From Rufibacter sp. LB8 (GTDB taxonomy: Bacteria > Bacteroidota > Bacteroidia > Cytophagales > Hymenobacteraceae), in contig NZ_JADALJ010000001.1 of NCBI RefSeq assembly GCF_014876185.1, positions 3,019,501-3,083,500 of the forward strand: a stretch of 64,000 bases of DNA. The letters run 5' to 3'. Made by a program: the position numbers and the translations under genes. This document shows positions 45,569 to 63,196 of the stretch, piece by piece. The notes under the pieces are model-generated. The model did not search any database. It was not told the origin of the DNA and worked only from the letters and a program-made list of their open reading frames with translations. Position 1 is the stretch's first letter. Each line of letters opens with the position of its first letter.

Positions 45569-45580
45569 GCATAAAATAAG

Positions 45581-45616
45581 AATCCCGCTTCCATAACAAG
45601 GAGCGGGATTTTTTGT
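45581..45616 (+). terminator. Terminator of the tRNA-Phe transcript
   Basis: AATCCCGCT / AGCGGGATT hairpin followed by TTTTTG, 13 bp after the tRNA. Confidence 0.85.
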
Positions 45617-46016: not shown

Positions 46017-46412
46017 ATGCTAGTCTACAAAAGCGGGTTCTTATTGCTGGAATTCGAACCCAGAATAGATACTATATTAGTTAGTTTACCTCCTGTGAGT
46101 GATATTCACGTCTCTGAGATTAGCAAGACGTTTGAGGTCATCACCGAGCATGTAAGGAACTATGACGCACGGAGGCTCCTGTTTGATGCAAGGACAACAA
46201 AGGTTGATATGCAGGAGGAAGTAGTCGCACCAATTATCTCTGAATTCATACAATCCCTGGCTTCCACCCGTATCAGAAAGATCGCGCGTGTTGAATCATC
46301 AAGTTTCTTAAGGGAGACCCACGTCTCTAAGGCGTTCAGAGAAAATGCACGCCGCATTCAGTTTAAAAGCTTCACAGAGATTGAACTTGCTGCAGAATGG
46401 CTGGAGGAGTAA
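46017..46412 (+). CDS. Small protein of STAS/SpoIIAA-like type
   Basis: 131 residues, cytoplasmic. The strand-helix pattern (FEVITEHVRNYDARRLLFDA, SLASTRIRKIARVES, AFRENARRIQFKSFTEIELA) fits the SpoIIAA/STAS-like fold seen in small Bacteroidota proteins; this is a weak match by eye. No neighbour suggests a role. Confidence 0.5.
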   Translation: MLVYKSGFLLLEFEPRIDTILVSLPPVSDIHVSEISKTFEVITEHVRNYDARRLLFDARTTKVDMQEEVVAPIISEFIQSLASTRIRKIARVESSSFLRETHVSKAFRENARRIQFKSFTEIELAAEWLEE

Positions 46413-46769
46413 ATTATTGCCTTGATTAAAGGAATAAAAGAAGGAATGCAACAACAAAAACCCCAAATCAGGACATAGTTGCCTACCATAGATTCACAAG
46501 ACATATAGAACAATCCTTTCTGGCACCCTTCTACTAAAATAGAGTTTCTGGAACATGATTTACTTTTTACCAGAAAAACGGTCGCCAAATACTTAGATCA
46601 ATAAGTAGGTATAGACATTCTGCACAAAGAAAGGATAGGCAAATCTAACTTTTATCTGAATCCAAGCTTGGTTCAGGTGATTGTGCATAACAGCCAAGTC
46701 TAATTTGCTGGCAAATGCTTCGCGATTTGCAATAGGATGAATAAAATCAACGAAAAACCATCGTTTTCC

Positions 46770-46849
46770 ATCATGGGTAAATTTTGCCATTTCTTACCTA
46801 TGAGAAACGTATCATGGGTAAAATTCTTGATTTTTTACCTATGAGAAAC
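46770..46849. repeat. Two 39-bp tandem copies
   Basis: Copies at 46770-46808 and 46811-46849, both beginning ATCATGGGTAAA and ending TTACCTATGAGAAAC, with a few differences in the middle. Confidence 0.75.
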
Positions 46850-46915
46850 AAAAGGCAACTTGCTGCTTGACGTTTCATTGAACCATCACTGCAAAAAAAT
46901 ACAGGCACCGTGTTT

Positions 46916-46955
46916 CTGTTTTCGGGCTTGTTTCTGGAAATGAAGGCGAAAACGG
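46916..46955. repeat. Dispersed palindrome
   Basis: CTGTTTTCGGGCTTGTTTC pairs with AAATGAAGGCGAAAACGG. Confidence 0.7.
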
Positions 46956-47068
46956 CGGATGGTTTCTTACTTCTTCCTGCACTATTTTCATCCTTTTTGT
47001 CCCAGTAAGAAGACAAAGCCGCCGCTGCCAGGCACAGGAATGAACTTCGATTAAAGAATAAAAAAAAT

Positions 47069-47108
47069 CCGTTTTCGGCCCCGTTTCTGGAAATGAGCCC
47101 GAAAACGG
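47069..47108 (-). terminator. Dispersed palindrome acting as terminator of the LuxR gene
   Basis: On the minus strand CCGTTTTCGGGCTCATTTCC / GGGGCCGAAAACGG is followed by ATTTTTTTTATTC, 13 bp after the LuxR-type gene stop. Confidence 0.78.
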
Positions 47109-47121
47109 AAAGTAGAATTAC

Positions 47122-47880
47122 TTACTGCAGGCCTTGCTCCAGGGCGTAGAGCAGCAGTTTGGCGGTGCTTTTGGCCTTGAGCTTGGTTTTCATGTTGCGG
47201 CGGTGGGTGTTCACAGTGAGGTCACTGATGTGGAGCAGGTCGGCTATCTCGCGGCTGTTCTTGCCTTTGACCAAGAGGCGAAGGATCTCCTTTTCGCGCT
47301 GGCTCAGGGTCACTACCTGCAGAATCTCCTTGTTGCTGAGCAGATACTCCTGGAAGGCAGGGTGATTGTAGCCGTACTGAATGTCAGTGGACTTTTTGTT
47401 GCCGGTGATGTTGGTGAACAAAGACACGGTCTTGGTGATGTTGCCTAGGCGGTCGGTTTCCCAGATGGCGTCCTGGCGCTGCACGCGTATGTAGTCGCCG
47501 TTGGCCACGCGCAGGCGGTAGTCTATGGAAAACACGTCATGCAGGGGCCGCAGGTGTTTGTACAGCACCGCGAAGTCAATGGCCAGCCAGGTGGCCTTGA
47601 TGACGGCCTCGCGATCTTCGGGGTGGATGATGTCATACAGAAATTCCACCGTGGGCTTCTCTATAAACCCGGTAATATCTTCATAGCTGGGGCTAATGTA
47701 CAGTACCTGTAGTGTCTGGCAGTCATGCAGGTACATGAACTGCGAGCCCAGGGTAAAGACAGACACCGCCTCCTCTGGGCTAGATTTGCGCAGTTTGAAA
47801 TCCTGGAAACCCACATCAAACGGCTGGTTCTGCCAGATTTGCTGGAATACATCAATAGAAGGCGGCAGGCGTTGCGTCAT
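47122..47880 (-). CDS. PAS-domain LuxR-type transcription regulator
   Basis: 252 residues. A PAS-like sensor domain (about 45-170: YISPSYEDITGFIEKPTVEF, HPEDREAVI) precedes a LuxR/FixJ helix-turn-helix (about 190-250: LSQREKEILRLLVKGKNSRE, LTVNTHRRNMKTKL). It should bind DNA as a dimer in response to an unknown ligand or redox state. It stands alone at the left edge of the defence island; nothing in the sequence links it to the island. Confidence 0.9.
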   Translation of the reverse strand: MTQRLPPSIDVFQQIWQNQPFDVGFQDFKLRKSSPEEAVSVFTLGSQFMYLHDCQTLQVLYISPSYEDITGFIEKPTVEFLYDIIHPEDREAVIKATWLAIDFAVLYKHLRPLHDVFSIDYRLRVANGDYIRVQRQDAIWETDRLGNITKTVSLFTNITGNKKSTDIQYGYNHPAFQEYLLSNKEILQVVTLSQREKEILRLLVKGKNSREIADLLHISDLTVNTHRRNMKTKLKAKSTAKLLLYALEQGLQ

Positions 47881-48259
47881 AGCCTTGATTTGGTGGATAC
47901 TAATTTCCCAAAAGGCAAGGTTAAGGAATAGTTTATCTCCAAAAAATGCCTACTTCTAGGTATTTTTCAGGAGTAAAGCTTACTTTCTGAGGGTAATACC
48001 AAGCTGGCAGAAGACTTATCTACCCACTGCTCCTACTGAAGAGGTAAAGAGTGACACTTTTTATTTCAGGATTGAACGCAAAGGATGCTGTTTTCGCCCT
48101 CATTTCTGGAAATGAACCCGAAAACGGAGGCATATTTGAACCAGCATCTCTGAGTTGAAAGAAGTGTATCTGCAAATTTTTCTAACTACAGCTTTATAGC
48201 TTTACTTAGCCATTTTAGATTTTAAGTAGCATAAGCTAATTAAATAGGGAAGTAAATTT
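47881..48259. other. Spacer at left edge of the defence island
   Basis: 380 bp with no gene. The last dispersed palindrome before the island (48089-48127) lies here; beyond about 48130 the sequence turns AT-rich. No integrase remnant or direct repeat with the right edge was found by eye. Confidence 0.5.
48089..48127. repeat. Dispersed palindrome, last copy before the island
   Basis: TGTTTTCGCCCTCATTTC pairs with GAAATGAACCCGAAAAC. No further copy is found through the end of the window. Confidence 0.72.
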
Positions 48260-49699
48260 TTACTCAGACAAAATAGGAACAATGGCACGGTCAAATTTCC
48301 GATATTCTCCACCTTGGCTATAAAGCAAGTTCCATACTCCCTGGCGTAATTTTATGGCTGGTTTTAAGCAGTGAGTATAAAATTCAGCAAGAGTAGGTTG
48401 AACGTGAGGAAAAAGAAGCTTCATGTACCCACTAGCTAGTGTTGTAACAGCTTCTTTGTTTCTATGATAGGCACGCTCCCCTAGGTCAATATTACGGGCG
48501 CAGAAAGTATCTGAAGCTGAATGGTGGCTACGAAGTGCTACTAAGATATCACCGAAATAATCAGCTTTTAATCCAAAGCCTAGTGCAAAGCTATTCTGCT
48601 CTAATTTAGGGATCTCCCAACCTGGGATTAGGCCTTTAATACGTTCAATGAAGGCTGTCTCTTGTAGAAATGATGGTAATTCTTGTGTAATAGGGTCATT
48701 TACAGGCTTTGACTGTGAATCAAGCGTTATGTTTGCTAATAAAACAAAACTACAATCTGAGGCAAACTCGTGAAGCCCTCCACGGGTGATACGACCGTTT
48801 GCCATGTATCCCTTCAGCCCCCCAACTATTTCAGCTGGGCTTTCAAATTTAAGGGTTTGTACTTCGTCTAATACAACAACAGCATAACGGGTAAGCAAAC
48901 CACCTTGTCCATTTGTGTTATTTACAAATAAAACCGCTGGAGATACATTACCACCACTAATCAGGCGCACCTGTGGTGATATATTTTCATATACATAGCT
49001 CTTTCCAGTACCACGTGGCGCTAGTTCTATTAGATGAGTATGCTTTTGAACTAATGGTAAAAGCCTTGCAAGAACTAACATTTGCTGCTCAGGGCTATAA
49101 AAATCTGGATTGTAACCCATAGATCTGAGAAGGACTGCGCGCCACTCTTCAATTGTAAAATGAGCTCTTGCCTCATTCCAGTCATCTAGATTGGCATCGG
49201 CCTGCATGGGTCTAAAATTAGTTATGACTACCCCTTGACCAGTTAAATAAACAAGTTCTACAACCCCCCACATTCCATGGTTTAGTAGTTGAGGGTTTTG
49301 TTTAATAATGTCTTCGCCAATGCGTCCATCAAAAATGCCAATCAAGGCAAGACGAGCATTGCGGACTGCTTTGGTCTGACCTAAAGTTACATCAATTTGT
49401 ACCCGAGTGAGAATTTTTACTCGCTCGCCAGCCAATAGCCGGTTCCGAATAGCGTTTCCTTCGTCAGCCTTAGGAATAACACGAGAGGCCCATTCTTGAA
49501 CTTTATTCGCATCAGCAGAGCTGAGTTCCCCGTGGCCTGGTACAACCGTTTCAAGTACCCATTCAGCTACATAGCCAGGTACTCCACGGTTTTTCAGTCC
49601 AGATGCTGCTAAACGGCGCTTATCTATGGCAGCATTAGTAAAGACACGATCTATTTTAGCTTCTAAGTTTTCAAATTCCATAATCAAATAATTTGGCAA
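48260..49699 (-). CDS. brxL: BrxL, BREX Lon-like AAA+ protein (short form)
   Basis: 479 residues (or 473 from a second ATG at 49681). The N-terminal part matches BrxL (LKNRGVPGYVAEWVLETVVP, VQIDVTLGQTKAVRNARLAL, NPQLLNHGMWGVVELVYL). The AAA+ core has Walker A PRGTGKSY (228-235) and Walker B AVVVLDEV (273-280). It is far shorter than the roughly 680-residue type 1 BrxL: the C-terminal Lon peptidase region is not recognisable, and the protein stops at VPILSE. A shorter BrxL family is known in some BREX types, so this need not be damage. BrxL forms DNA-encircling rings in type 1 BREX; an interference role here is inferred. It is the last gene of the operon, 18 bp after pglZ. Confidence 0.88.
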   Translation of the reverse strand: MPNYLIMEFENLEAKIDRVFTNAAIDKRRLAASGLKNRGVPGYVAEWVLETVVPGHGELSSADANKVQEWASRVIPKADEGNAIRNRLLAGERVKILTRVQIDVTLGQTKAVRNARLALIGIFDGRIGEDIIKQNPQLLNHGMWGVVELVYLTGQGVVITNFRPMQADANLDDWNEARAHFTIEEWRAVLLRSMGYNPDFYSPEQQMLVLARLLPLVQKHTHLIELAPRGTGKSYVYENISPQVRLISGGNVSPAVLFVNNTNGQGGLLTRYAVVVLDEVQTLKFESPAEIVGGLKGYMANGRITRGGLHEFASDCSFVLLANITLDSQSKPVNDPITQELPSFLQETAFIERIKGLIPGWEIPKLEQNSFALGFGLKADYFGDILVALRSHHSASDTFCARNIDLGERAYHRNKEAVTTLASGYMKLLFPHVQPTLAEFYTHCLKPAIKLRQGVWNLLYSQGGEYRKFDRAIVPILSE

Positions 49700-49717
49700 A
49701 AGTGATACACCACTAAC

Positions 49718-52075
49718 TTAAAATAAATCATCAAGTGGGTTTGTACTTGATTGCCTCAAATCTGTGTTTCGTAAGTTAGTATTGAGATTAAAAGTATGTA
49801 GTTCTCCATCAGGTGTTTCTAAGGTAACTTGTGCCACTGTTTTCTCCGCTTGAGCAGTGTCAGGCCAACGGGGTATCTCAATAGATTTACTTATTCCTAT
49901 GGTTCCAGGTAGCAGTTCATCAAATTCAATTTCCAGGTCATCAACACGTGGAATTTGGACTTTAACTTTCCGAAGGCGGGCAGGTCTAGAACTACTGTTA
50001 TTAAGATGTAGTTCAGCTTTCCCTTGTCTATAGGAACGAGATTCTCCAGACAAAAAACCGCCAATCATTAATGGCTCTAAATTGCTTTGTAATTCTATCC
50101 AAGGTACAACTACTTCTTCGGGCCAAGCACCGCCGTGTGGAAATATATCAGTTCCTCCTCGCATAGAGCCAGTATGACTAACAATTTTAAAGGAAGCATC
50201 TGAACGAGCAATAGCAACCCAATCAGGCAACTTAAAACGGTCAGGATCAAGCCAACGCACTGTATCTGTATCAATAGCTTTATCTGGCCTAGGTATAGGC
50301 TTTTTATGTGGAGGAGAAGCTCTATAGGCTGCTCTCCCATGCCCCGTAAAACCAGATATGGGGTCTAAGGTCCTTGGGCTTTCACTTAAAAGACGACCAT
50401 GGTCAGTTGTAATAATTACTCGGACCTCCGTATGAATTGGAACTGCAGCTACTGCTTCACAAATACTAAGTGCAATCCCTGTTAAAGAAGCTACTGCATT
50501 ATTTCGTATGGTTTGCGCATTTCCTGGATTATGGTAAATACTATCAGGCTCAGGAGGTAACCAAACTAACAGCTGCCCAGCCTGAGCTACATGCACAGCT
50601 TCTGCTAGATTATCTATGCCCCTAACATCTACTGGGGGCATAGGCAGTTGATTAAAATAATCTTCTTTAGCTTTTTGGGTATATTCTAAAGGCACTCCCC
50701 AGCGTACAGCCCTCTTTGTATGGGATGTGATAGTAGGGACTAAACCAAAGCAAGGGGTTGCCGCAATTAAGCTCAATCTACCCGCTGCTTGAGATAAAAC
50801 AAGCTTTTGAAGGGTGAGCGCATCATCCCACCCCAATCCATCTGCAATCACCCAAAGCACTATTTCATTTGACGCGGGCTTTTTTAGGGCACGCGCAGCC
50901 CAAAATTGCTGTTGATAGGGAGCAGGGGTACCCACCAGCTTTATTGGATATGTTTCTAAAAACCAATCACTAAAAGCTTCAGATAATCGCTGAACCTCAG
51001 CTCTTGCTTTATCATTGTTTTTCTGGCTAGCCTGCCAAAGACGATAAGGGAGATATTGTTGTGTAACCCATTGTAAGGCGCCAGAGGGCTCGCTAGGTAC
51101 AGGTGGAGGCACAGGTGGCGGAACAAGTTGCCGTAATGTTGCAACCAAAGCGGGAGTTGCTACATGGCTTCTTTCTAGCTGTGATATTAAAAGCTCAGTA
51201 GCTGCATGAGAAAATATTGGGGAGTGTAATTGTTGTACTAAAGCCTGTAGAGCCGTTTGCCTTATTTCAGGATGATGGGCTTTGCTAATTTGTAATTGCC
51301 ACCAAGCAAGAGCTGCCTCGTCTTGTTTGTCTTTAGTAACCCCGCTTAAAGTTGTAACTAGTTGCTGCAGGAAGGCGTTTCTTGCAGCAGTTATCCAATT
51401 TGTTACAGGTAATGGAAATTGTGTAGCCCAAGATATAGCTGATTTTAACGCAGGTGAAGACGTCATAGGGTTTTCATAACCTATCCAAGCAGTAAGAGCA
51501 GCTTTAGCTTGGGCAGAGTTGGTGGGGAAAAACGCTGCGGCATCTGGAAAGCTTTCATGCCAATCAGCCACCACCTTTTTTATAACTGGTAAATGTTGTT
51601 CAGGAAATTGAGTAGACTGGGTTGATAACCAAGATAACCAATAACTAGCCTGGTTACGCACTAACGTCACATCTGTTTGAGCAAGCAAACCATTCCAGTG
51701 AGAGAAACTTGGATAAAGGTTCTTTAGAATTTCCCACAAAGGAGGCAGCTTAGTGGTGAAAGGTATTGGTAAATCAGAAAGCACTTTACGGGCTTGTTGC
51801 TCTGTAAGTGAAGGGCAACGCTCTCTTAATTGAACGGAAGGAGATATAAGCGTTGCTGTTTGTCCACCAAGTGCTTGCCACCAAATATAAGCCCAATTGC
51901 ACCGTTCTACTCCACGTACCACTACTTTAGGAACATTATCAGTGGTCTTAACTTTAGCAGCAGCTTTAAGCCATGCTACATCGGTATCTATAACACTATA
52001 CCCCTCTGGTGCAGGAGCGTCACCAGAGGGGTCTAATAATAGTGCCTTAATTGGTAAAGAAGAACTCTTTGACAT
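49718..52075 (-). CDS. pglZ: PglZ, BREX alkaline-phosphatase-superfamily protein
   Basis: 785 residues from the ATG at 52075, which follows the brxC stop directly (TAATATG on the minus strand). An ATG at 52102 would overlap brxC by 26 bp and is less likely. The PglZ domain (about 400-690) shows the metal-site motifs LWVIADGLGWDD (Asp412), ITTDHGRLLSE (Asp558-His559) and the late block GGTDIFPHGG. The N-terminal 390 residues are helical and variable, as in other PglZ proteins. PglZ is the one protein found in all BREX types; in characterised systems it is needed for defence and has metal-dependent nuclease or phosphatase potential. Confidence 0.92.
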   Translation of the reverse strand: MSKSSSLPIKALLLDPSGDAPAPEGYSVIDTDVAWLKAAAKVKTTDNVPKVVVRGVERCNWAYIWWQALGGQTATLISPSVQLRERCPSLTEQQARKVLSDLPIPFTTKLPPLWEILKNLYPSFSHWNGLLAQTDVTLVRNQASYWLSWLSTQSTQFPEQHLPVIKKVVADWHESFPDAAAFFPTNSAQAKAALTAWIGYENPMTSSPALKSAISWATQFPLPVTNWITAARNAFLQQLVTTLSGVTKDKQDEAALAWWQLQISKAHHPEIRQTALQALVQQLHSPIFSHAATELLISQLERSHVATPALVATLRQLVPPPVPPPVPSEPSGALQWVTQQYLPYRLWQASQKNNDKARAEVQRLSEAFSDWFLETYPIKLVGTPAPYQQQFWAARALKKPASNEIVLWVIADGLGWDDALTLQKLVLSQAAGRLSLIAATPCFGLVPTITSHTKRAVRWGVPLEYTQKAKEDYFNQLPMPPVDVRGIDNLAEAVHVAQAGQLLVWLPPEPDSIYHNPGNAQTIRNNAVASLTGIALSICEAVAAVPIHTEVRVIITTDHGRLLSESPRTLDPISGFTGHGRAAYRASPPHKKPIPRPDKAIDTDTVRWLDPDRFKLPDWVAIARSDASFKIVSHTGSMRGGTDIFPHGGAWPEEVVVPWIELQSNLEPLMIGGFLSGESRSYRQGKAELHLNNSSSRPARLRKVKVQIPRVDDLEIEFDELLPGTIGISKSIEIPRWPDTAQAEKTVAQVTLETPDGELHTFNLNTNLRNTDLRQSSTNPLDDLF

Positions 52076-52076
52076 A

Positions 52077-55000
52077 TTAGTTGGCAGCTGCAAACGACTC
52101 ACGTTCTAATAAAAGTTTTAATCGCTCAACACATTTCTTCCTTTGTTGAGCATCCTTTATCTGGCTAAAACGCACAGTAATATCTTCAACTTGGTCAGCA
52201 TCGAAGCGTTTTTGAAGTGCTTTTTCAAGCTTTTCTTTTCGTGACTTTTCCTCTTTAGGTAAAAAGTGAAATTCCTTATTTATAGCATTCTGAAGCTCTT
52301 GATAAATTTTGGCAGGTGGATCATTGGGGTCATTTAACTCATTGCGAGTAATTAAATTAGATAAAATTTCTTCTGCCTCATTTACATGCTCTGCAAAAGC
52401 GTCTACCACCGTCTGCTTTGCTTCTAAAACGTAAGATTGTTGTGATTCAGAAATCCCTTCAAGAAGCGTTAGTTTATCATACTTCTTTAGTAGTTTTTGT
52501 AGTTCAGTAGTATTTTCTGGGTTATCCTCACGTAAATCAGAAATATCATCTAAGATCTTATTCCATATCCTACACCATTTTAGTGCTTGAGAATGCATTT
52601 CACTTTCAGGATTTGCATCCTGATAGTTATCGTACTGCCGCTCAAGTGTACTGGAAAGTGTTTTAATCTCCTTCTCTAAAAATTTTAAGGATTTACCTTC
52701 TTTCCCGGGTAGATCCCTTGCTTTAGTTTTATTATTGATCACGCTACTCTCAAGCTCTACAATACGACCTTTAACAGTTGTGATAGTAGAATTAAGAGCA
52801 GTTTCTCCTTTTTCAGAATGAGGATTTAAAGTTGTTAGTTCTTCTAAAGCTTCTCGTAATTCATTTAGATTTTTAAGTTTTTCGAAGTCTTTTAGCCTTG
52901 CTAATAGGGTAATATCTTTTTCCTCTCCTTGTAGTTTGTCTTTTTGTTTTAAGATAGTTGAAATAGATTCTTCTACCATAGAAAGTCCAACTTCCTCAGT
53001 CAAAGGAGATAAATAATTCTTAATTGAAAATAAACGGGTTGTGTTTTCCGAACATTTAGTAGTCGTGCCTAATTGTTGCTGTGAGGTGTATATACTGCAT
53101 ATCAGTTTTACAAGTGAGCGGAGCTTTATTATAAGTTGGGCTTCGGCTTTCTTTACTAAATCTATATTTGGAGGTAGCACACTAACCTGTGGTGGGCCAT
53201 TCTGGATCTGAACGATTGCTTTGACAATTGCTTGAATTGTGTCGGGGTGGGTGGTTGAGGACAATGTAAAACGTTCAGTTGTTTCACCTAGCCAATTGCA
53301 ATAAGCTTCTATATTTTGTATTGCAGTTTTTATTTGAGGTGCCGTTTCTCTGGCCCGCTCTTTAAGGATAGGGTCATCACTTTCACTAGCTATAAATTCT
53401 TCTAAGGCAGTAAGCCTTGCTTCTGCTTCAGAAAATTCGAGCACCCCTTGATTTTCCCAATCATTCAGTATTTGCTCAAGATAAACTTTAGCCGTTTCTT
53501 GGTCTTCACGTGTAGCATGGAGATTAAGGGGGCCAAGAAGGGTGGAGATAACCTTTTCAAAGTTGTTTTCTGTGGTGAACCAGTCTTCCCCTTTTAGTTT
53601 TTGCCCAGTTGGGCCGTGATAAAAATTGAGTGAACGGCGATATCTGCCTGCCCAAGCGCAAAAAAGAAGTCCTAATGCGTAATAATCATACCCGTAAGGG
53701 GCATTTAACAACTGCAATAGAGGACCTCTAAGCGATACACGGTCATCAGGGCTAGTGCCAACAGGCACTGCTGCTTCTAAAACTTGCCAACCACGTTGTA
53801 CTACCTCAAGACGAGGGTCTACCACACGTAAGCTTGCGTCAACAACTCCCCAAGTAGTAGAGGAGTCGCGAAGAACTTTGTCATATACTTTTCTTGCTGG
53901 GGCTCCAGCGGCACTCCTTGTGTTATTTTCCCAATCTATAAACTTATCACGTCTTAAATAGTCACAGGCTGTCCATACCCCTCTTCTATAATTAGTGCCA
54001 GAAGAGGCATCGTCAAGATAAGGAGCTCGCCAGCCATAGGAGTAATCATAGCAGGCTTTGAGTAAAACTCTTAAAGAAGGAGTTGGGATGGTAGATAATA
54101 AGGCATTCACAGCAGAAGCGTATACTGTTGGCACCTTGTAATCAATAACTTTATTTTCTTCTTTTCGAAGCTTAGTTAGTTCTGCTTGTTTTTGCGTATT
54201 TATCTGCGCTTGAATTTGCTCAATAGCTTTTACTCCTAAGTCAGCACGGGTTTGCGAACCCCAACCATCTAATACATACTGCTGCGCTAAAGCCCGTAGT
54301 AATCCTGTATGTGGCTGTTGAGGTAATACAAGAACTACAGGTGGTGGATAAGTTGCATCCAGTTCTTGTATTACTGCATCAAAGTCAGCTTGGGCGTTGG
54401 CTCTTAACCAAGCAACCTCTCCATCAGTAAATCCAACTGGCCTTATTGCATAACCCCGACGTGCAGCTACGTCAAGAGAGGAGCTGTCACTGGTAAGCTG
54501 GTAACGACGAATTACTTGGCGAAGGTAATCTTGCGACCATAAAATACGTGGCACTACAAATACGTGTGCAGCCCAGTCTATTGGATTACCTAGAGAAACT
54601 TCCTCAGCATGATTTAAGGTAGTTAGTTGTTTTCTAAGTGCCTTCTTAAGGTCTTCTTGGTCTTGTACTAATAGATCTGTTTCAGTAGCAAGTGTTTTGC
54701 TTGCTTTCATGCCATCTTGGCCCAAACTCCAAAATAAATATTTTGCTCCAGCCGGATCGTGCTGGATACGGCTATCAGCCGCTAACTCTTCAAGTGCTTT
54801 TGCCGCATCTTCAGGTGAGTGTCCACTTAGAGCAGCAATAATATTTTCAAAATTAGTTATGCCATCTCCTACAGTTAAATTTGCTGTTTCACGCACAAAC
54901 ATTGCTGCTAATACGTCATCTTTTAACCTAGATAATTCAGCTAATTTTAACTGGGGTAAATCAGCCCCAGCTAATCTAAGCGCATTTTGGTACCTATTCC

Positions 55001-56447
55001 AATCTTCATCATTTTTAGCCAATGACTCTTTGAAATAGGCGACTAGTTGAATGGCTGGAATAAATTGAAGTGTACCATTAGCATTAAGAACAGGATAGTC
55101 AGCAAAGCGTTGGAAGGTCTCCTTGACAAAACCTAAACTGGGCCGAGCTGATACAGTTTCCCGAATACCTAGCGTGCAAAGCAAAGCAGTAGTAAGCGGG
55201 TGTAGTGGAAAGCACTCATAACCCAGCTGATTCTGCAATTGCTGTGATGACCATGTAGAATATCTTGCTTGAAAAAGCAACTTTGTCATGTCTACTGCAG
55301 CATCTAAGTTGGCTTCGGCAGTCTGATTTTCATCCAATATAGTGCCCAAAAGATCTTTATCTTGCTGAAGGAAATCCCCCAAGACAGCTTCCAGGGGTGA
55401 TACTAGTACTTTGCGTCCAGGATCTGGAAAACGAGTGAGCTCTCTATTTACTTCATCCAGTCTAGAAGAATTTGCGCCCATAGCACGCTTGGCTATGCCT
55501 TCAGGATTCGCTTGCGTAAAAGCTACTATGGCGGCTTTGCTTTGTAAACCAGCAACGGCCTCTAAGAGGTTTTGTAAAGGTTGGTTCCTGCTTAATAAAT
55601 CATACTCAGTTGCATAATCTTGCACAAACCGGCCAAATTCATCATAAAGAATAAGTAAGCCAGCAAAGGGCTTCCCTTCTCCACAATACCTTTCTACAAC
55701 ACTTTCTATAACCTGTTTTGGGCCTAACATATCGCCAAAGGCAGGAGGGAAACCCGTTACATAGTGCACCATTTGACTTAACTGCTCCCGGTACTGCCCT
55801 CGCCGAGAGCTAAGGTCCTCTCGTAGGTCTTGTAGGGTTAAAGAGGGGGTAAGAGACTGCAAAAACTCAGATGCTTTTTCTACATCCGTTTCTTTAGCAG
55901 AAAGTGCTGCCAGACCTTCTTCAGCGGGCTTAAACCATAAACCTATATCTTCATTTGCAGTAGCCGGATTGAGAGCAAAGGCTTTTTCAATACCCCTAGT
56001 AATACTTTGGGCAATAGTAAGGGTGTCATTCCCAAAAAGAGTTAATACTAAATATGGTTGGCGGCTTTCTTTGAAATTCTTTAGTCCTTCAAAATCCCCT
56101 TTAGCATGTTTTATGGCCTCTAGTACCGTGTTTACCTCTGGCGACCCAGCAGTCTTTCCGAAAAAATTAGCTATAGCTAAAGCCAAGTGAGATTTGCCGT
56201 GGCCGTAGATAGCCTCCCACAAATGGCGATTACCTTGCTTGGCTATTTCGTCTGACTCAAACCCATCGCGTAATTTATTTAAGGCTTCTAAGGAAGGGAG
56301 CTCTTCGCCAATCTGCTGGCGGGTCCAAGAATAAGAGCCAGCTAATTTGGCATTGTTTGGGTGAGAAGGATACCAGGCTAGCTGTACATCGCTGACAAAA
56401 GCAGCTTGAGGATTTTCTCTTGTGATATTACCTATTAAATAGTTCAT
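52077..56447 (-). CDS. brxC: BrxC/PglY large P-loop ATPase
   Basis: 1456 residues, in the size range of PglY/BrxC. Walker A YGHGKSH at 81-87 and Walker B GLLILYDEFGRF at 263-274 are clear. From about 1080 onward the chain turns into long charged coiled coil (LREALEELTTLNPHSEKGE, KIYQELQNAINKEFHFLPKE). BrxC acts as an ATPase hub that joins the other BREX proteins and DNA. The N-terminal design (YG.GKS, then DEFG) is shared with the ATPase at 59074-62295. It lies 38 bp downstream of the small gene at 56486 and is joined to pglZ. Confidence 0.92.
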   Translation of the reverse strand: MNYLIGNITRENPQAAFVSDVQLAWYPSHPNNAKLAGSYSWTRQQIGEELPSLEALNKLRDGFESDEIAKQGNRHLWEAIYGHGKSHLALAIANFFGKTAGSPEVNTVLEAIKHAKGDFEGLKNFKESRQPYLVLTLFGNDTLTIAQSITRGIEKAFALNPATANEDIGLWFKPAEEGLAALSAKETDVEKASEFLQSLTPSLTLQDLREDLSSRRGQYREQLSQMVHYVTGFPPAFGDMLGPKQVIESVVERYCGEGKPFAGLLILYDEFGRFVQDYATEYDLLSRNQPLQNLLEAVAGLQSKAAIVAFTQANPEGIAKRAMGANSSRLDEVNRELTRFPDPGRKVLVSPLEAVLGDFLQQDKDLLGTILDENQTAEANLDAAVDMTKLLFQARYSTWSSQQLQNQLGYECFPLHPLTTALLCTLGIRETVSARPSLGFVKETFQRFADYPVLNANGTLQFIPAIQLVAYFKESLAKNDEDWNRYQNALRLAGADLPQLKLAELSRLKDDVLAAMFVRETANLTVGDGITNFENIIAALSGHSPEDAAKALEELAADSRIQHDPAGAKYLFWSLGQDGMKASKTLATETDLLVQDQEDLKKALRKQLTTLNHAEEVSLGNPIDWAAHVFVVPRILWSQDYLRQVIRRYQLTSDSSSLDVAARRGYAIRPVGFTDGEVAWLRANAQADFDAVIQELDATYPPPVVLVLPQQPHTGLLRALAQQYVLDGWGSQTRADLGVKAIEQIQAQINTQKQAELTKLRKEENKVIDYKVPTVYASAVNALLSTIPTPSLRVLLKACYDYSYGWRAPYLDDASSGTNYRRGVWTACDYLRRDKFIDWENNTRSAAGAPARKVYDKVLRDSSTTWGVVDASLRVVDPRLEVVQRGWQVLEAAVPVGTSPDDRVSLRGPLLQLLNAPYGYDYYALGLLFCAWAGRYRRSLNFYHGPTGQKLKGEDWFTTENNFEKVISTLLGPLNLHATREDQETAKVYLEQILNDWENQGVLEFSEAEARLTALEEFIASESDDPILKERARETAPQIKTAIQNIEAYCNWLGETTERFTLSSTTHPDTIQAIVKAIVQIQNGPPQVSVLPPNIDLVKKAEAQLIIKLRSLVKLICSIYTSQQQLGTTTKCSENTTRLFSIKNYLSPLTEEVGLSMVEESISTILKQKDKLQGEEKDITLLARLKDFEKLKNLNELREALEELTTLNPHSEKGETALNSTITTVKGRIVELESSVINNKTKARDLPGKEGKSLKFLEKEIKTLSSTLERQYDNYQDANPESEMHSQALKWCRIWNKILDDISDLREDNPENTTELQKLLKKYDKLTLLEGISESQQSYVLEAKQTVVDAFAEHVNEAEEILSNLITRNELNDPNDPPAKIYQELQNAINKEFHFLPKEEKSRKEKLEKALQKRFDADQVEDITVRFSQIKDAQQRKKCVERLKLLLERESFAAAN

Positions 56448-56485
56448 AAAATTGTTGAATAGGACTGCTTAATATTTTATTAAAA

Positions 56486-56977
56486 CTATGTCAAAGACAG
56501 AAAACGTTGAGTGCCCCAAGTAGATTCTGGCTCAGGTGGACCAAAACGAGATAATAAGTTAGATGGTATGGCTACAACAATGGGTGGGCGGTAAGAAGCC
56601 ATACCGTGTAGCTTACTCCAAAATATAGTGCGTTCATTTTCTGATAGCTTGGCTAAAAGAATATCAATTCCCCAAATCCAAACTCCAGGTTCCATAGGGT
56701 CTGGGTTGTCATTATTTGGTAATAAATTCAGTATATACTCTAATAATTGAGTGGGACTTAAGCCTACATGGCCATAGGTCTGGCATTTCTCCGCAACGTG
56801 TAAACTTAAATGAATTGGCTCTAAAAATAGGCTGGAAGCCCAAGTCTCAGGGGCAGTAAAATATTCATCTTTATTTAAAGCAATTAAAGCCGTGCGTACC
56901 CTAGGAGCCGTATGGCCCCGAAGAGAGTTCGCAAGCTTAATTAATTTATTTGGGGCAGAAGTGGCGGTTGTTGACAT
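56486..56977 (-). CDS. Small BREX-associated protein of unknown function
   Basis: 163 residues from the ATG at 56977 (MSTTATSAPNKLIKLANSLR). An ATG at 57037 lies inside the upstream gene and gives a hydrophobic leader that is that gene read in another frame. No Walker A motif. The C-terminal half (GVWIWGIDILLAKLSENERT, then PPIVVAIPSNLLSRFGP) resembles the Walker B and sensor-1 strands of a P-loop fold without the nucleotide loop, as in a degenerate BrxF-like adaptor; this is a guess. It sits between the second DUF4007-like gene (17-bp gap) and brxC, so it is probably a BrxC partner. Confidence 0.7.
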   Translation of the reverse strand: MSTTATSAPNKLIKLANSLRGHTAPRVRTALIALNKDEYFTAPETWASSLFLEPIHLSLHVAEKCQTYGHVGLSPTQLLEYILNLLPNNDNPDPMEPGVWIWGIDILLAKLSENERTIFWSKLHGMASYRPPIVVAIPSNLLSRFGPPEPESTWGTQRFLSLT

Positions 56978-56994
56978 GTAAGAAAATAATATGA

Positions 56995-57858
56995 TTAGGC
57001 ATAAAGCGATTCCCATAGGGAGGCTGTGTCTGACCACCTACGCAAAATTTGGGGAGGGTCAAAACGCCGCTGTCTCTGTATTAAACCAATATGTGGTGCC
57101 GCTAACTCTGCTAGCTTTGCATTAAAGCCATCTACCCCTAATAATAGTATTTTAGGCAATTCACTTCTAGTTAGAACCTCTTCGTCTAGGGAAGCTGAAG
57201 TAGGAAAATGAGCCTGCCAGTAATCCGCTAAAATGCAGGCGAAAACATTAGTAGGAATTGATTGAGGCATTCTAACAAAATATTGGTTTTTTTCTGGTCC
57301 TACAAGGAGTCCTAATTTATTTAATCCGTCTTCAGCAGAATAACTCCCTAGTATAGCAGTGGCTGCTGCTTCATATGTTCCGGATGCAAGCTCCTTTTCT
57401 TCTGACCCTATGCTTTCAGCTTTGATTGATTCGCTGATTTCATTTTTATTTAATGAGTTACCTAAAAGGAATCTAGTTGTTACTATACTACCCCAGAATT
57501 TGGGGCCAAAACCATGTTCTACTGAAATAAAGTAGTGTAAAAGCCATTGAGTTTCGACTAGACTTAAGTTTAAGTCATTTTCAATAACAAGTTTTCCAAA
57601 ATCAGTGATAGTGCCGTCCCTTTTAATTAAACCGCAACCACGAGCATAGTTTACATTAGAAGTTATTTGATTAGGTCCAAGAGTAGTATTTTCTTGTAGT
57701 ACTTTATCAGTAGGTTTAATGTTGTTTTTATTATTAGCAGAAACTAAGGCATTCAAAATTTGATTTAACCCAGATCGACTTAATCTAAAAGTTTCTGAAA
57801 AAGAAGTTTTTAGCTTTATAATTAGTTTAGATTCATTTTGGTTTGTTTGAACCATCAT
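56995..57858 (-). CDS. Diverged DUF4007-like protein (second copy)
   Basis: 287 residues. It follows the layout of the DUF4007 protein at 62285-63196: a first domain with TTLGPNQITSNVNYARGCGL aligning with the LGVGKNMVASIRYWLKAF block, then TDFGKLVIENDLNLSLVETQ and WLLHYFIS aligning with TEFGESLF...WLLHYQLV. It lacks the GHESF motif at the start, so any nickase function of SspB may be lost. It is the first gene of the BREX half, ahead of the small protein and brxC, after a 112-bp gap from the PAPS-reductase gene. I infer a DNA-binding adaptor for BrxC. The family assignment rests on alignment by eye. Confidence 0.65.
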   Translation of the reverse strand: MMVQTNQNESKLIIKLKTSFSETFRLSRSGLNQILNALVSANNKNNIKPTDKVLQENTTLGPNQITSNVNYARGCGLIKRDGTITDFGKLVIENDLNLSLVETQWLLHYFISVEHGFGPKFWGSIVTTRFLLGNSLNKNEISESIKAESIGSEEKELASGTYEAAATAILGSYSAEDGLNKLGLLVGPEKNQYFVRMPQSIPTNVFACILADYWQAHFPTSASLDEEVLTRSELPKILLLGVDGFNAKLAELAAPHIGLIQRQRRFDPPQILRRWSDTASLWESLYA

Positions 57859-57970
57859 ATTTAAATTTACTTTATATTATATTTAATTTATGCTAAATTC
57901 ATTTTGATAAAACAAATCCCAATTAACTACAGAACTAATCTTGTATTTTAATAGAATTGTTGTTTTATGC
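57859..57970 (-). other. 112-bp AT-rich gap between the two halves of the defence operon
   Basis: The only sizeable gap in the eight-gene run. It could hold an internal promoter; I see no full TTTG-N19-TAnnTTTG match and no terminator hairpin, so read-through is expected. Confidence 0.5.
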
Positions 57971-59077
57971 TTATATAAAGCAAGCAGCGCACCCTTCTGC
58001 TTCAGAATCGTCTAGAATATCTAAAAGAAATGAGGACTTTAAATTAGATTGATTATGTTCCTGCCGTTTAATATAGTCTTCTTTGATTTGCTTTACTCTT
58101 TCAGGCTGAATTAATTCTGACAAGGTTTCTTCCTGGCTCCAGTTATAACCTGCTTTTTCATACTCTAAAGCTTGCTGAAATAACTCTGGATGCTGCTCAT
58201 ATAACCATACCCATTCTATTTTTTGTTGAAAGAAGCAGAAATAACAACCAGAACGACTTCTAGCATATTGCCCTTTCTTATCACCTACCTCAAAATCAAT
58301 TTTCTTATAATAGGCTGGGACGCCTACTCCGCTCTCTTCAAGAATCCTAAAGATATCATTTCTTAATAGAATCTCTTCATTATCTAGGAGCGGAAAATCT
58401 TCTTCCTGCGCTAAAGGATATTCTGTGGATTTAAGAAACTCAAAGATGAGTCTATTGGTCTCTTTGATTCCTTGATTAAAAAGTTGATCTATTTTGCTTT
58501 GCTGATTGAAGTTCAAAGCAATCGGCTTAGCTAGTATGTCAATAATTTTGTCTCTTCTACTCCCAAGATCTACACAATCAGTTAAAGCAATAAGTTTTCC
58601 AATATTGTTATTATTAACAAACTTGTTAATCACATCTTCACTAAAGATATTCTTTCTAAAGGGGAAGATAGACTGGATATTAGTTTTCTTTGATATATAT
58701 CCTTCCCTATCTTCATCTCCTCTAATGCCTACATAAGAGACTACCAAGTCATTGCCAACGTACTTCTCAAAAGGTTCTAGTTTAAGCTTTTTGGTACACC
58801 AACGAGAGTTAGAAGAAGGTAAAAAGCCACCATACATTTTCAAAAAATGATCAAAAGAGTCCACGTGGCTTCCTTCGGCAGCTTTCAATAATGTAATCCT
58901 TTTCCCTAAATAGACTTCTAGGTTCTCAATTAACTGATAAGTTTCATCTAACTCCTTACCTGTATCTGTAGTGTAGTAATCAATATTTAAAGTTGGATAG
59001 TTCTGTTTTAGATAAATAGCTAAAGCGGCACTGTCTTTGCCCCCTGAAATGCCTAATACATGCCGTACATTACTCAT
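57971..59077 (-). CDS. PAPS-reductase/PP-loop enzyme, SspD/DndC-like (BrxP equivalent)
   Basis: 368 residues. The PP-loop ATP-pyrophosphatase motif is GISGGKDSAAL (SGGKDS at 11-16). Cysteines suited to an Fe-S cluster occur in SNSRWCTKKLK (Cys94) and SGCYFCFFQ (Cys278, Cys281), with a further Cys pair at the C-terminus (GCAACFI). This is the pattern of DndC and SspD, which activate DNA with ATP for sulfur insertion. A PAPS-reductase gene (brxP) is also the marker of type 4 BREX. It overlaps the upstream ATPase by 4 bp. No cysteine desulfurase (DndA/SspA) lies in the window, so sulfur would come from a host IscS/SufS-type enzyme. Confidence 0.85.
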   Translation of the reverse strand: MSNVRHVLGISGGKDSAALAIYLKQNYPTLNIDYYTTDTGKELDETYQLIENLEVYLGKRITLLKAAEGSHVDSFDHFLKMYGGFLPSSNSRWCTKKLKLEPFEKYVGNDLVVSYVGIRGDEDREGYISKKTNIQSIFPFRKNIFSEDVINKFVNNNNIGKLIALTDCVDLGSRRDKIIDILAKPIALNFNQQSKIDQLFNQGIKETNRLIFEFLKSTEYPLAQEEDFPLLDNEEILLRNDIFRILEESGVGVPAYYKKIDFEVGDKKGQYARSRSGCYFCFFQQKIEWVWLYEQHPELFQQALEYEKAGYNWSQEETLSELIQPERVKQIKEDYIKRQEHNQSNLKSSFLLDILDDSEAEGCAACFI

Positions 59078-62000
59078 TTGGATATTATTTCTTTTAAAAG
59101 CTTGGCTAATGCAGCTATGTTTAAGCTATTGTCTTTTGAAAGCGCTTCTGCTATAGATCTCTTGATAACTTCTATCTCCTCACTTTTGGTCTTTGGTAGT
59201 CTAAGGGTACTGCGGGTAACACCTTCTGCAAAGGAATCAAACTGAAGACCTAGCACTTCTTCTTTCTCTTCATTAATCTCAGATTGAGAGAGTACAGTTA
59301 GGCTATCTAAATCTAAGATTAAGGTCTTGAACTTTTCATACAGCAGAATTTCTTCCTCATCTTTCAAGTTCTCTAATGATTTGCCTACTACTGCCTGAAC
59401 TATTGAGTTCAGCCACGCCTTACGGTCATCTAAAGCTGAGTCTAAGCGCTGGATAAATGTCTTTTGATAAGGCAAGAGCAAATGCTTCTTCAGCTTTTTA
59501 TAACGCAGCTGTAATTTATTTTTATACTCTTCAAAAGAGTAGCGTTCATATAGTAGTTCATCTTGAATGAAGTCCTCTACTCTATTTACTAAACCTTCAT
59601 AGCTGGTTCTCACCTCTCTTATAGCATTTTGCAAGGTACTGATATAGTCATTTAAACTAATAGAATCAGTCTTTAATTGGCTAAAAGAAATACCCAATGC
59701 ACTAGGAAAATCTTCAAAGAAGGTTTTCTCAGGATCTTCTGATTTAGTAATGGCTGCGCGTATAGCCAATGCCTCTCTGCTTAAGCGCTTGGTGTTTTTG
59801 GAATATGCGGGTAAGTCTCTGTAAAAGGTTAAAAAAGGCTTAATGGTCTGGATGAACGTCTGGTTGTCAACTTTCTCTTTTATTTCCTGGTTTAAAAACA
59901 AGCGGTAGCTATTGAAGATATCAAGTTTAACTCCTTCAATGTCAAACGCCTTAACCCAAAAAGCCTTAGGCTCTTTAGAAATAAGTTCTAGGATCTCATC
60001 ATTTAAAACAGGGATGTAACCATTCTCACCAAAGAGTGCCAAATCGTTCCTTTTCAAGAAAAGAAAAGTAGGTACCCAAAAGCCTATCAACCCTTGTTTT
60101 AGTTTTAAAGGCCGTTTATTCAACTCCTCTATAAATTCAGTAAGGTTAGTCTTCTCCTGCTTTGCTTTTCCTAAGAAGTTAAGTGAGCAATCCCATAAGG
60201 CTTTGAAAGAGGACTTTTCTGTAACAGCTATATCTTGCCCTGCTACATCTATGTAAGGAGAAAGTCCATTCTGCTTAAGCAAGGTAATGTAAATGGTTTT
60301 CTCTGCAGGAAATTTATCTGCTGGAAAACCAAGATCTACTTGCATCCAGTGGTTAGCCAGTGCTTTAAAGTAATTCCTTTTTGCACTATGTATAGCCCCT
60401 GAAATACGATGTTTGTTGACTAATTCATTATTGAATTTTGGCGTGCTTGGATATACATCAACACAAATGGTAGAGAGTAGTACAACAAAGGCTTTCTTAT
60501 CTTCAAGCTTCCATTCTTTACCACCCCAAAACCAAGCAACTGCGCTTTTCTCACCAAAAAGATTTCTATCAATGTAATGCTGAAGCAACTTCTTTTGATG
60601 GAGAATAATATTCTCTAATTCTCTTTTAGCTGTCTTGTCATCCCGGTTCCCTTGTAAGACTTTCTCGGTTTTTTCAATCTCATACAGAAGAGTTTTTATC
60701 TCTTTTGAGTTTTTAAAATACCCATAGAGTACTGCTTCCTTTTGCTCCTTAGATGCCTCTTGAACTTCTTCTATGCTTAATTTCTCATTGAAGATAAGGT
60801 TAATGAAACCATCCATTTCTCCTTGTGGAATGTCTGCTTCAAGATTTTCTTTAATCTGGTAACTGAAGTACCGCGGAGTGCCTGTCCAGTAAAAATATGA
60901 TTTAGCTAATACTGGCTCTTGCTCCAAGTATTTTTCAAGGACAGTTTTAACATCTGTGATTTCATTGACAGTGTCTGCCGCTTTAATTAACTCTCCTTCT
61001 ATGTCTACATCTGTTCCCTCAAACAAAATGTACCGCTTACTATGATTACGGTACCTAATAATTTGCTTTGACTTAGATTCTAAATCATTTATCAAAACCT
61101 CTGCCTCTGGAATTCCTAAACAGAGAGTAGAGTATGCAACTAAGAAGCTCTTGTTTAGATTTGAACCCGCAGCTGCATAGATGCTTAATAACCCAATTGA
61201 TTTTACTATTCTGGAATATGCTTCTAAATTATTCTCAAAGCTATTTTCTACTTGCTCTAGCGCAGTTCTAATAGATCCCCAAGCTGTTAAATCAGGATTA
61301 TATTTCGAAGTAAGGAATGAATAGAAGTTAAAGCTTAGATAATCATAAACATTTGCCAAATTATAGAAAGGGGCTTCTGTTTTTCTGAACCTTGCAATAC
61401 TCGTATAGTCTGTTGCTTCCAAAAACGAAAACAATGACCGCTCATTCTGCCCATACCGCTGTAAAGATAATGTCAAAATATTGGCAGCAAAGAGATCTAG
61501 CGGGAATACCTTCTCACTAATTTCATTGCTGCATGCAGTATTTTGGAATGCTTTAGAGTTTGCAAATATTTCATGTGCATCTTCAACGCTCTCCTTTGGA
61601 GCTTTGAATTTAGTGGCTGCATCTATGTGCTCTGCTGCAAGAAAAAGCAGCTGTTCTACCGGCTCATTAAACGTAATTTCTCTGAAGCGGCCTTTTACTT
61701 TTGTCCATTCCTGCCGCTGAGCAGGTGTAAGGCCATAGGCATAGCTTTCAAACCCCTGGTGTATTGTAGTTACTAAGACAATGTTGTATTCAGGGTTATT
61801 GGCAAACTCTGCTAACTGCTGCACAAAATATAGCTCTTGCTCAGGATTGTTCTGAGCCGCATATTCTAACAGCTTACCAAATTCATCTATCTCAATGAAC
61901 AACAATCCATTTTCGCCTAGGTCATGGTATCTGTTGTAAATTTCAGACAAAACATTCTCTGGCAGATTTTGCTCCGCTTTAATTTCCAAAGTAGAAGCTA

Positions 62001-62295
62001 GTATCTCAATAATGCTGTTGAAAGAACCTACAACTTTGATAACCTCAAAATTAGGCTCTTGCATGAACTTAGCATTAAAATAAGGCTTGACACCTTTTAA
62101 GCTTTGCTCCAGTGCAAGTAGAAAGGAAGACTTACCTGTACCGTAAGACCCAATCAGGTTAAAAGCCCGGGTACCTTTTCTAAAATCATCTACCATTTGC
62201 CCAACCACACGCTTTGCGTTAGGAGTAGGTATATAGAAAAAGTCCTTCTCAGTATCTCTTATGATATTTATAGAAGGCGTAAAATTATTTTGCAT
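59074..62295 (-). CDS. Large P-loop ATPase, SspC-like
   Basis: 1073 residues. Walker A GSYGTGKSS at 49-57 and Walker B LLFIEIDEFGKL at 131-142 mark an N-terminal ATPase domain; the remaining 900 residues are mainly helical and charged. Position and partners (DUF4007 protein before, PP-loop enzyme after, with overlaps of 11 and 4 bp) match SspC in SspBCD phosphorothioation operons. The N-terminal arrangement is like that of BrxC at 52077-56447, which suggests common descent. It would provide ATP-driven DNA handling for the modification step. Confidence 0.8.
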   Translation of the reverse strand: MQNNFTPSINIIRDTEKDFFYIPTPNAKRVVGQMVDDFRKGTRAFNLIGSYGTGKSSFLLALEQSLKGVKPYFNAKFMQEPNFEVIKVVGSFNSIIEILASTLEIKAEQNLPENVLSEIYNRYHDLGENGLLFIEIDEFGKLLEYAAQNNPEQELYFVQQLAEFANNPEYNIVLVTTIHQGFESYAYGLTPAQRQEWTKVKGRFREITFNEPVEQLLFLAAEHIDAATKFKAPKESVEDAHEIFANSKAFQNTACSNEISEKVFPLDLFAANILTLSLQRYGQNERSLFSFLEATDYTSIARFRKTEAPFYNLANVYDYLSFNFYSFLTSKYNPDLTAWGSIRTALEQVENSFENNLEAYSRIVKSIGLLSIYAAAGSNLNKSFLVAYSTLCLGIPEAEVLINDLESKSKQIIRYRNHSKRYILFEGTDVDIEGELIKAADTVNEITDVKTVLEKYLEQEPVLAKSYFYWTGTPRYFSYQIKENLEADIPQGEMDGFINLIFNEKLSIEEVQEASKEQKEAVLYGYFKNSKEIKTLLYEIEKTEKVLQGNRDDKTAKRELENIILHQKKLLQHYIDRNLFGEKSAVAWFWGGKEWKLEDKKAFVVLLSTICVDVYPSTPKFNNELVNKHRISGAIHSAKRNYFKALANHWMQVDLGFPADKFPAEKTIYITLLKQNGLSPYIDVAGQDIAVTEKSSFKALWDCSLNFLGKAKQEKTNLTEFIEELNKRPLKLKQGLIGFWVPTFLFLKRNDLALFGENGYIPVLNDEILELISKEPKAFWVKAFDIEGVKLDIFNSYRLFLNQEIKEKVDNQTFIQTIKPFLTFYRDLPAYSKNTKRLSREALAIRAAITKSEDPEKTFFEDFPSALGISFSQLKTDSISLNDYISTLQNAIREVRTSYEGLVNRVEDFIQDELLYERYSFEEYKNKLQLRYKKLKKHLLLPYQKTFIQRLDSALDDRKAWLNSIVQAVVGKSLENLKDEEEILLYEKFKTLILDLDSLTVLSQSEINEEKEEVLGLQFDSFAEGVTRSTLRLPKTKSEEIEVIKRSIAEALSKDNSLNIAALAKLLKEIISK

Positions 62296-63196
62296 AGTAC
62301 AATTTGAGAATTTCTAAAGGCGCTATTTCCTTTTTAAACTGCAATTCTTTAATACCTGCTTGGTCTGTGTATGTGATAAAAGAATATGCTTCAACAGCTT
62401 CTTCAATTTTACTTACTAAGCCTGATCTATTTAGCGCAAAGATGTTTCCTGGGCTATTAATATCATTCTCTAAACTGTGTAAACTTATGGAAGCACCATA
62501 GGCAGGATTTGAGCAGATGGCATAAAGGAGTACTTCCGCCGGAAGAGCCAACCTCTCTGTATTCTCTATATAAAATAGATCATACCTTATCTTCTTGCCA
62601 TTTTCCTCTTTTACTTGCATCATTGACTTCAACAAGCCCAACTCCGTTAATATCCCAGAAAAGCTATCTTCTATTCCATTCTTTGAATCCTCGTTGCCAG
62701 ATAGATACAATTTACGGAAAACATCAAAATCATCGCCAACTGTCTTAGGATTGAAACTCAATCCTTTTTCTGTTTCTGCTTTTCGTTTTACGTAATTGAC
62801 AAAAGTGTCTTTGTTGAAATGCATCTTTTCTTTTCTGAACTCATTAAAAATCAGAAAATAAGAAGACGCTAATCCTTTGCTTACTAGTTGGTAATGCAAC
62901 AGCCACAGGCTTGCACTGTCTTCCAAAAACGGGTCAAAACCTTTATCACTAAAAAGAGACTCTCCAAATTCAGTAACCTCATCTTTGCTGTCTACTATGT
63001 TGAAAGCTTTCAACCAATAACGGATAGAGGCTACCATGTTCTTACCAACGCCCAAATCAACCACCGCACTTTCGCTGTGGAAGGACCCTCCTGCTTTTAT
63101 ATAGTCAAATCCCTTCTTCAACCAAAGCTGTCTACATTGAAAGGACTCATGGCCTGAAAAAGAGTATTTGATACGTAGCTCTTGCTCGCTTATCAT
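62285..63196 (-). CDS. DUF4007 protein, SspB-like
   Basis: 303 residues with a clear DUF4007 pattern: FSGHESFQCRQLWLKKGFDY (13-32), AVVDLGVGKNMVASIRYWLK (44-63), then TEFGESLFSDKGFDPFLEDS and WLLHYQLV. As I recall the literature, SspB of single-strand phosphorothioation systems belongs to this family and nicks DNA so that sulfur can be placed; this should be confirmed by a profile search. It is the first gene of the operon. A TACCTTTG box (63229-63236) lies 33 bp upstream of the ATG and an 11-bp overlap leads into the ATPase gene. Confidence 0.85.
   Translation of the reverse strand: MISEQELRIKYSFSGHESFQCRQLWLKKGFDYIKAGGSFHSESAVVDLGVGKNMVASIRYWLKAFNIVDSKDEVTEFGESLFSDKGFDPFLEDSASLWLLHYQLVSKGLASSYFLIFNEFRKEKMHFNKDTFVNYVKRKAETEKGLSFNPKTVGDDFDVFRKLYLSGNEDSKNGIEDSFSGILTELGLLKSMMQVKEENGKKIRYDLFYIENTERLALPAEVLLYAICSNPAYGASISLHSLENDINSPGNIFALNRSGLVSKIEEAVEAYSFITYTDQAGIKELQFKKEIAPLEILKLYYAK

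Follow-up and report, generated by a model that had tools for sequence, protein, structure and literature searches.

Eight consecutive minus-strand open reading frames (ORFs) in Rufibacter sp. LB8 probably encode a defence system that relies on phosphorothioate and combines two portable cassettes, an SspBCD writer and an interference arm resembling bacteriophage exclusion (BREX) machinery, as judged from their sequences. The ORFs run from position 63196 down to 48260 of the 64,000-nucleotide stretch analysed here (contig NZ_JADALJ010000001.1, positions 3,019,501 to 3,083,500; hereafter the window). A first-pass annotation had described them as a type 4 BREX operon carrying a full SspBCD-like phosphorothioation module, and the ORF list bore out the place, order and strand of the eight genes as well as their single gap of 112 bp. 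That gap (57859–57970), an AT-rich spacer of 17.9% G+C, is the largest interval in the run and forms the junction between writer and arm; elsewhere in the run there are overlaps of 11, 4, 43 and 26 bp and gaps of 38 and 18 bp, all computed from mechanically assigned ORF starts. G+C content is 52% in the window from 1 to 45600, 36.9% in sspBCD (57971–63196) and 41.4% in the arm (48260–57858), steps that fit two foreign pieces of different origin.

Gene content of the locus

The hidden Markov model search that the annotation had suggested was run on all eight proteins with PADLOC, Pfam and NCBIfam, and matches to SspB, SspC, SspD, DUF4007, PglZ and BrxL models were obtained. Of the proposed gene names, those of SspB, SspC, SspD, the second DUF4007 protein, PglZ and BrxL could thus be kept, but the 1456-amino acid protein called BrxC matched no BrxC model in the three collections at the thresholds applied. 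The writer proved to be complete, with its three genes side by side. SspB, the DNA-binding part (62285–63196, 303 amino acids), scored 361 bits on PADLOC PDLC02760 and 250 bits on Pfam DUF4007, and aligned with the solved SspB structure 6juf_B at 1.1e-20. SspC, the large writer ATPase (59074–62295, 1073 amino acids), scored 1446 bits on PDLC02776. SspD, a PP-loop/PAPS-reductase-like sulfur transferase (57971–59077, 368 amino acids), scored 312 bits on PDLC02782, 25 bits (1.1e-06) on the PADLOC BrxP model and 28 bits on Pfam PAPS_reduct; its PP-loop SGGKDS and cysteines C94, C278, C281, C363 and C366 are kept in 20 of 20 SspD/BrxP rows.

The annotation had also proposed that the BREX-like genes replace SspE or SspFGH, and replacement of SspE found its strongest support in a congener, G739. 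At the same site, this genome carries SspB, SspC and SspD with 88, 87 and 92% protein identity to those of the window, followed by a 550-amino acid ORF, a 372-amino acid AAA protein and SspE (PDLC02789, 968.5 bits). By blastn against the G739 locus (L098), DNA homology extends over 6,037 bp (80.1% identity) from 63999 to 57971, the final base of the sspD stop codon; beyond this point it is lost and picks up again only at 45618. The exchanged segment (45619–57970) therefore begins exactly at the end of the writer and holds the arm together with two further genes (47122–47880 and 46017–46412). No match to SspE was found in the window's genome, in the same search that gave 1765 bits for G739.

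The arm itself consists of five genes, of which the first encodes a second DUF4007 protein, A2 (56995–57858, 287 amino acids; Pfam DUF4007 33.6 bits, cut-off 27). A2 aligned with SspB by hhalign at E = 1.3e-21 and is the probable subunit for recognition of DNA or its mark. An identity with BrxA was rejected (hhalign probability 0.3); a resemblance of DUF4007 to BrxA at the level of the fold has been described (PMC12839542), and the likeness of A2 in sequence is to DUF4007/SspB. The second gene encodes a small protein conserved in the arm (56486–57037, 183 amino acids), for which a GTG start was assigned and the true start probably lies downstream. Its homologs were found in 13 loci, one of them (L020) assigned by position only. 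Size and position suggested BrxB, a candidate that was also rejected: hhalign of the 13 small proteins against six BrxB gave a probability of 0.1, and a single-sequence structure model was unusable (mean predicted local distance difference test score 42).

The third arm gene encodes a second large ATPase, here termed BrxC2 (52077–56447, 1456 amino acids). Only profile–profile comparison tied it to the SspC/BrxC ATPases, with hhalign values of 1.3e-21 for SspC and weaker ones for type-4 BrxC (8.6e-10) and type-1 BrxC (6.7e-8); against the ATPases of other arms, values of 2.6e-22 (L058–L060), 4.9e-22 (L018) and 5.9e-39 (L017) were obtained. Its P-loop, GHGKSH, lies at residues 82–87, and D269 and E270 are invariant in 14 of 14 relatives. 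PglZ (49718–52102, 794 amino acids; PADLOC PDLC02549, 162 bits, 3.6e-48) is predicted to be a metal-dependent nuclease/phosphodiesterase effector. Residues D421, T459, H524, D567, H568 and H656 are kept in all 24 rows aligned, including four type-1 and two type-4 PglZ, and for type-1 PglZ both a metal-dependent nuclease activity and a contribution to defence have been demonstrated (PMC12205998). The run ends with BrxL, an AAA+ DNA motor (48260–49699, 479 amino acids), which scored 483 bits on NCBIfam TIGR02688 (cut-off 329) and 597 bits with PADLOC, and aligned with structure 8emc_A at 9.4e-55. PbeABCD was considered as the parent of the arm and set aside, being described as an HKD nuclease-helicase with a CxC ABC ATPase (PMC6459918, PMC10853773).

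Distribution and separate histories of writer and arm

For the distribution of the arm, a BrxC2 profile was used. Of 204 genomes of the family, 16 gave a match, which was full-length in 12; 15 of the 16 loci were read, the weak match in G620 being left out. All eight genes stand in order in 11 of the 12 full-length loci, one of which (G188) has sspC split in two frames; because the order is kept so widely, the arrangement is not one of chance. The exception, G671 (L052), has a truncated sspC and no match for sspD, A2 or the small gene; its ATPase lacks the first 76 positions, and inserted ORFs were seen in the locus. At wider ranks, and with the window's genome counted, 2 of 247 genomes sampled from the class carry BrxC2, as do 5 of 395 from the phylum, where three copies are full-length. 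Outside the phylum, where plasmid records were searched, the eight-gene layout was found in a Thermomicrobium roseum plasmid record and in a Pseudanabaena galeata plasmid, the latter with a toxin gene, a Uma2 nuclease and small ORFs interspersed and with the small protein assigned by position only. An Annamia plasmid carries the arm without SspBCD and with its ATPase in pieces. A weak match was also seen in an Abditibacteriota plasmid.

Comparison of loci showed that writer and arm have not been inherited as one. Between A. rhizoryzae and G188 the writers are alike (SspB 68%, SspC 66–70% and SspD 93% identity) and the arm proteins less so (33–64%), whereas between A. rhizoryzae and the window it is the arm proteins that are alike (57–93%) and the writers that differ (SspB 30%, SspC 24%, SspD 40–48%). 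In the SspD tree, the window groups with G658, G661 and two Hymenobacter plasmids; in the BrxL tree, it groups with A. rhizoryzae and G668. Both trees come from short searches with Shimodaira–Hasegawa-like approximate likelihood-ratio (SH-aLRT) support only and contain long branches. In G658 (L058) and G661 (L060), SspBCD of the window's type stands ahead of a second, different BREX-like arm, composed of a DUF4007-like protein (258–267 amino acids), an ATPase of about 1,560 amino acids, PglZ and BrxL. The ATPase, PglZ and BrxL of this second type were also seen in G625 (L059), at a contig end where only these genes are in view. The two Hymenobacter plasmids join the window-type writer to other genes again: in one it precedes DUF262 and SIR2 genes, and in the other it precedes genes for a helicase, an ATPase and a PLD protein, while a DUF262 gene lies on the opposite strand. 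Together with the SspE-bearing locus of G739, these combinations suggest that the marking and attack modules are interchangeable parts.

A possible reader of the mark was found intact in two relatives. In G188, the N-terminal part of A2 resembles the sulfur-binding domain SBDHga1 (8h0l; 1.4e-24); G686 has the same fusion, and A. rhizoryzae retains the domain in a form disrupted by a frameshift and a stop. The domain was rejected as a general part of the arm, since among 13 loci with an A2 gene it is intact in two and broken in one. The three carriers differ in their arms but share one SspD clade, and this sharing has a chance of 1 in 286 if the domains were dealt at random (relatedness ignored). 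Inheritance of the domain thus seems to follow that of sspD, as might be expected if one motif has to suit both reader and writer.

The site in the genus

The interval between window 45618 and 63345 is a defence hot spot with varied occupants. All 16 genomes of the genus carry its flank gene, which lies at 63349 in the window, and the region beside it was read in 8 of 15 relatives, with both flanks visible in G739, G742, G743 and G745 and one in the others. On the far side, homology to L097, L098, L101 and L103 ends at exactly 45618. In addition to SspBCD with the BREX-like arm (window) and SspBCD with SspE (G739), the site was occupied by a Mza system in G741 and was empty in G745; in G742 it held no ORF of 300 amino acids and gave no profile match, and G740 and G744 were not read. 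The last 107 bp before the boundary (45512–45618) match L103 twice, at 2935–3041 and 4396–4500; an insertion that duplicated its target site may have left this pattern.

A nuclease with sulfur-binding and HNH domains lies beside the flank gene, 818–3632 bp away, in 9 of the 16 genomes of the genus. It is of a 317–318-amino acid type (SBDHga1 1.6e-15 for L099; L099:13309–14265, L096:13131–14087, L103:5660–6613). The nuclease was found in neither of the two genomes known to hold SspBCD and in 9 of the 14 others, which were not searched for SspBCD (P = 0.175). At this level it is suggestive only that writers and sulfur-dependent nucleases exclude each other in the genus, yet a site where genes for writing the sulfur mark alternate with genes for cutting marked DNA merits study.

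Proposed mechanism and alternative explanations

The mechanism proposed here builds on what can be read directly from the DNA (gene families, catalytic residues, conserved architecture and the exact junction of the arm) and adds to it a predicted sulfur mark with its motif, a presumed direction of sensing and a presumed anti-phage activity. With a housekeeping cysteine desulfurase supplying the sulfur, SspB, SspC and SspD would place phosphorothioate on a short DNA motif. DNA would most likely be scanned by the DUF4007–ATPase pair, A2 and BrxC2, and phosphorothioate on host DNA would hold the arm off. On unmarked phage DNA, the ATPase would engage the BrxL motor together with PglZ, predicted to be a metal-dependent nuclease, and so bring phage replication to a halt. 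Restraint of the arm by sulfur was ranked ahead of the opposite arrangement, a possible but less favoured one, in which marked host DNA would license the arm, as with SspE, and the activated arm would then damage phage DNA. Licensing draws on the behaviour of SspE, whose place the arm takes here and which depends on phosphorothioate in order to act (PMC9646914), and a sulfur-binding domain fused to A2, as in the relatives, could serve either way; SspFGH, the other known partner of SspBCD, is on the contrary toxic without phosphorothioate (PMC8092258). The arm without SspBCD in Annamia has a fragmented ATPase, and in G671 both writer and ATPase are truncated, which, few as the cases are, is as expected of an arm that does harm when unrestrained.

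Two further explanations concern the locus as a whole. That the locus is simply a type 4 BREX system, some of whose parts are unfused or duplicated, is an unlikely one. In its favour, the SspD of the window is related to BrxP (hhalign 97.4) and its SspC to type-4 BrxC (98.4). A phosphorothioate-based type 4 BREX is, moreover, already in print, with its BrxC, PAPS reductase and DUF4007 proteins described as corresponding to SspC, SspD and SspB (PMC12839542), and the central idea of the first-pass annotation, a backbone sulfur as the self mark of BREX, is thus known for type 4. The same source counts SspB-, SspC- and SspD-like proteins, PglZ and BrxL as type 4 and reports cysteine desulfurase in 56% of 457 taxa, a set that may include the two-ATPase layout of the window. 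In our literature search, the two-ATPase layout was not found in print; the main text of PMC12839542, which was word-searched apart from its figures and supplements, mentions neither a second ATPase nor a sulfur-binding domain. The type 4 label was not supported by closer comparison. Type 4 BREX has a core of four genes, BrxP–BrxC–PglZ–BrxL. The window has two large ATPases and two DUF4007 proteins, and its PglZ reached 16.3 bits on BREX_PglZ_4 (cut-off 140); by hhalign it is nearer to type-1 PglZ (93.7) than to two type-4 PglZ (18.9), with values of 98.6 and 98.8 to the PglZ of other arms. Canonical type-4 loci were picked with the same model, which gave G280, the only one of 296 genomes above the cut-off, and G324 (138.6 of 140). 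Both consist of four genes with one ATPase: a BrxP-sized protein of 786 amino acids, named by its place and by the hhalign match to SspD, an ATPase of 1383–1385 amino acids, PglZ and BrxL. Still less probable is that two independent defence cassettes stand side by side in a hot spot with no joint function. The several different occupants of the site, and the separate histories and different G+C contents (36.9 and 41.4%) of writer and arm, would fit such a juxtaposition; however, T. roseum and 11 of the 12 family loci keep the order and strand with short gaps, different SspBCD types precede the same type of arm, and SspBCD of the window's type precedes the second BREX-like arm in G658 and G661. 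The arm also has no recognised mark-maker of its own in the PADLOC, Pfam and NCBIfam scans.

Several observations weigh against a phosphorothioate-based system of writer and arm. The 183-amino acid protein is unexplained, with no family match in the PADLOC, Pfam and NCBIfam scans. The window alone among the 12 full-length family loci has no cysteine desulfurase gene at the end of the operon, the other 11 having one; its genome does have 16 matches to PF00266 (class-V aminotransferase), the best of them 43% identical to the operon desulfurase of A. rhizoryzae. The sulfur-binding domain is absent from the writer/arm junction of the window, unlike in G188 and G686, and gave no match in the window's genome in a search without a positive control. 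In G188, an intact arm beside a split sspC is odd if the arm harms unmarked DNA, unless the split is a sequencing error, and is less surprising if the arm stays inactive where sulfur is missing, as licensing would have it. Finally, in G362 (L018, 2–13069) a methyltransferase, a DUF4007-like protein, an ATPase, PglZ and BrxL lie in one run, and because this related arm follows a methyltransferase the type of arm is not tied to sulfur. In favour of a sulfur mark in the window, a linked methyltransferase, which the annotation had named as a possible alternative source of the mark, was not found in a scan confined to 10 flanking proteins.

With modest confidence, we lean towards a third class of SspBCD effector, separate from type 4 BREX and defined by a portable arm (at least three phyla), interchangeable writers and a DUF4007 protein that would read phosphorothioate, sometimes with a fused sulfur-binding domain. 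Neither sspE nor sspFGH accompanied 2,211 of 2,678 sspBCD modules (printed as 83.9%) in PMC8092258, where further restriction partners were raised as a possibility, and a third class, if real, would explain part of these. The window locus offers a concrete candidate for such a partner, and G739, with the same SspBCD and site but with SspE, a natural control. The pair makes three questions testable: can backbone sulfur serve as the self mark of a BREX-like machine, can writers and effectors be exchanged for one another, and are PglZ and BrxL held back or activated by phosphorothioate?

Comparison with known systems

With type 4 BREX, the window shares a sulfur transferase, DUF4007, an ATPase of the SspC/BrxC type, PglZ and BrxL, and differs in its two large ATPases, its two DUF4007 proteins, its unfused SspD and SspB and its off-model PglZ. 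With type 1 BREX, it shares the catalytic residues of PglZ, BrxL, a BrxC-related ATPase (hhalign 94.6) and a similar gene order, in which a DNA-binding protein and a small protein precede the ATPase; it differs in that no PglX match was found in the eight proteins and in that A2 and the small protein are unrelated by sequence to BrxA and BrxB. The arm of G362 is related to that of the window through its DUF4007 protein, ATPase and PglZ (hhalign 93.5, 99.4 and 98.6) and through its BrxL (353 bits with the arm profile), but a DrmMI/PglX-like methyltransferase lies ahead of it where the window has SspBCD. In G521 (L017, 4238–15999), a BrxC2-like ATPase and a DUF4007-like protein adjoin SspG/SspH-like genes with a HerA domain. 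With the Ssp systems (SspABCD–SspE and SspABCD–SspFGH), the locus, which contains no SspA gene, has in common the SspB, SspC and SspD writer, and in the place of SspE or SspFGH it carries the arm A2–small protein–BrxC2–PglZ–BrxL.

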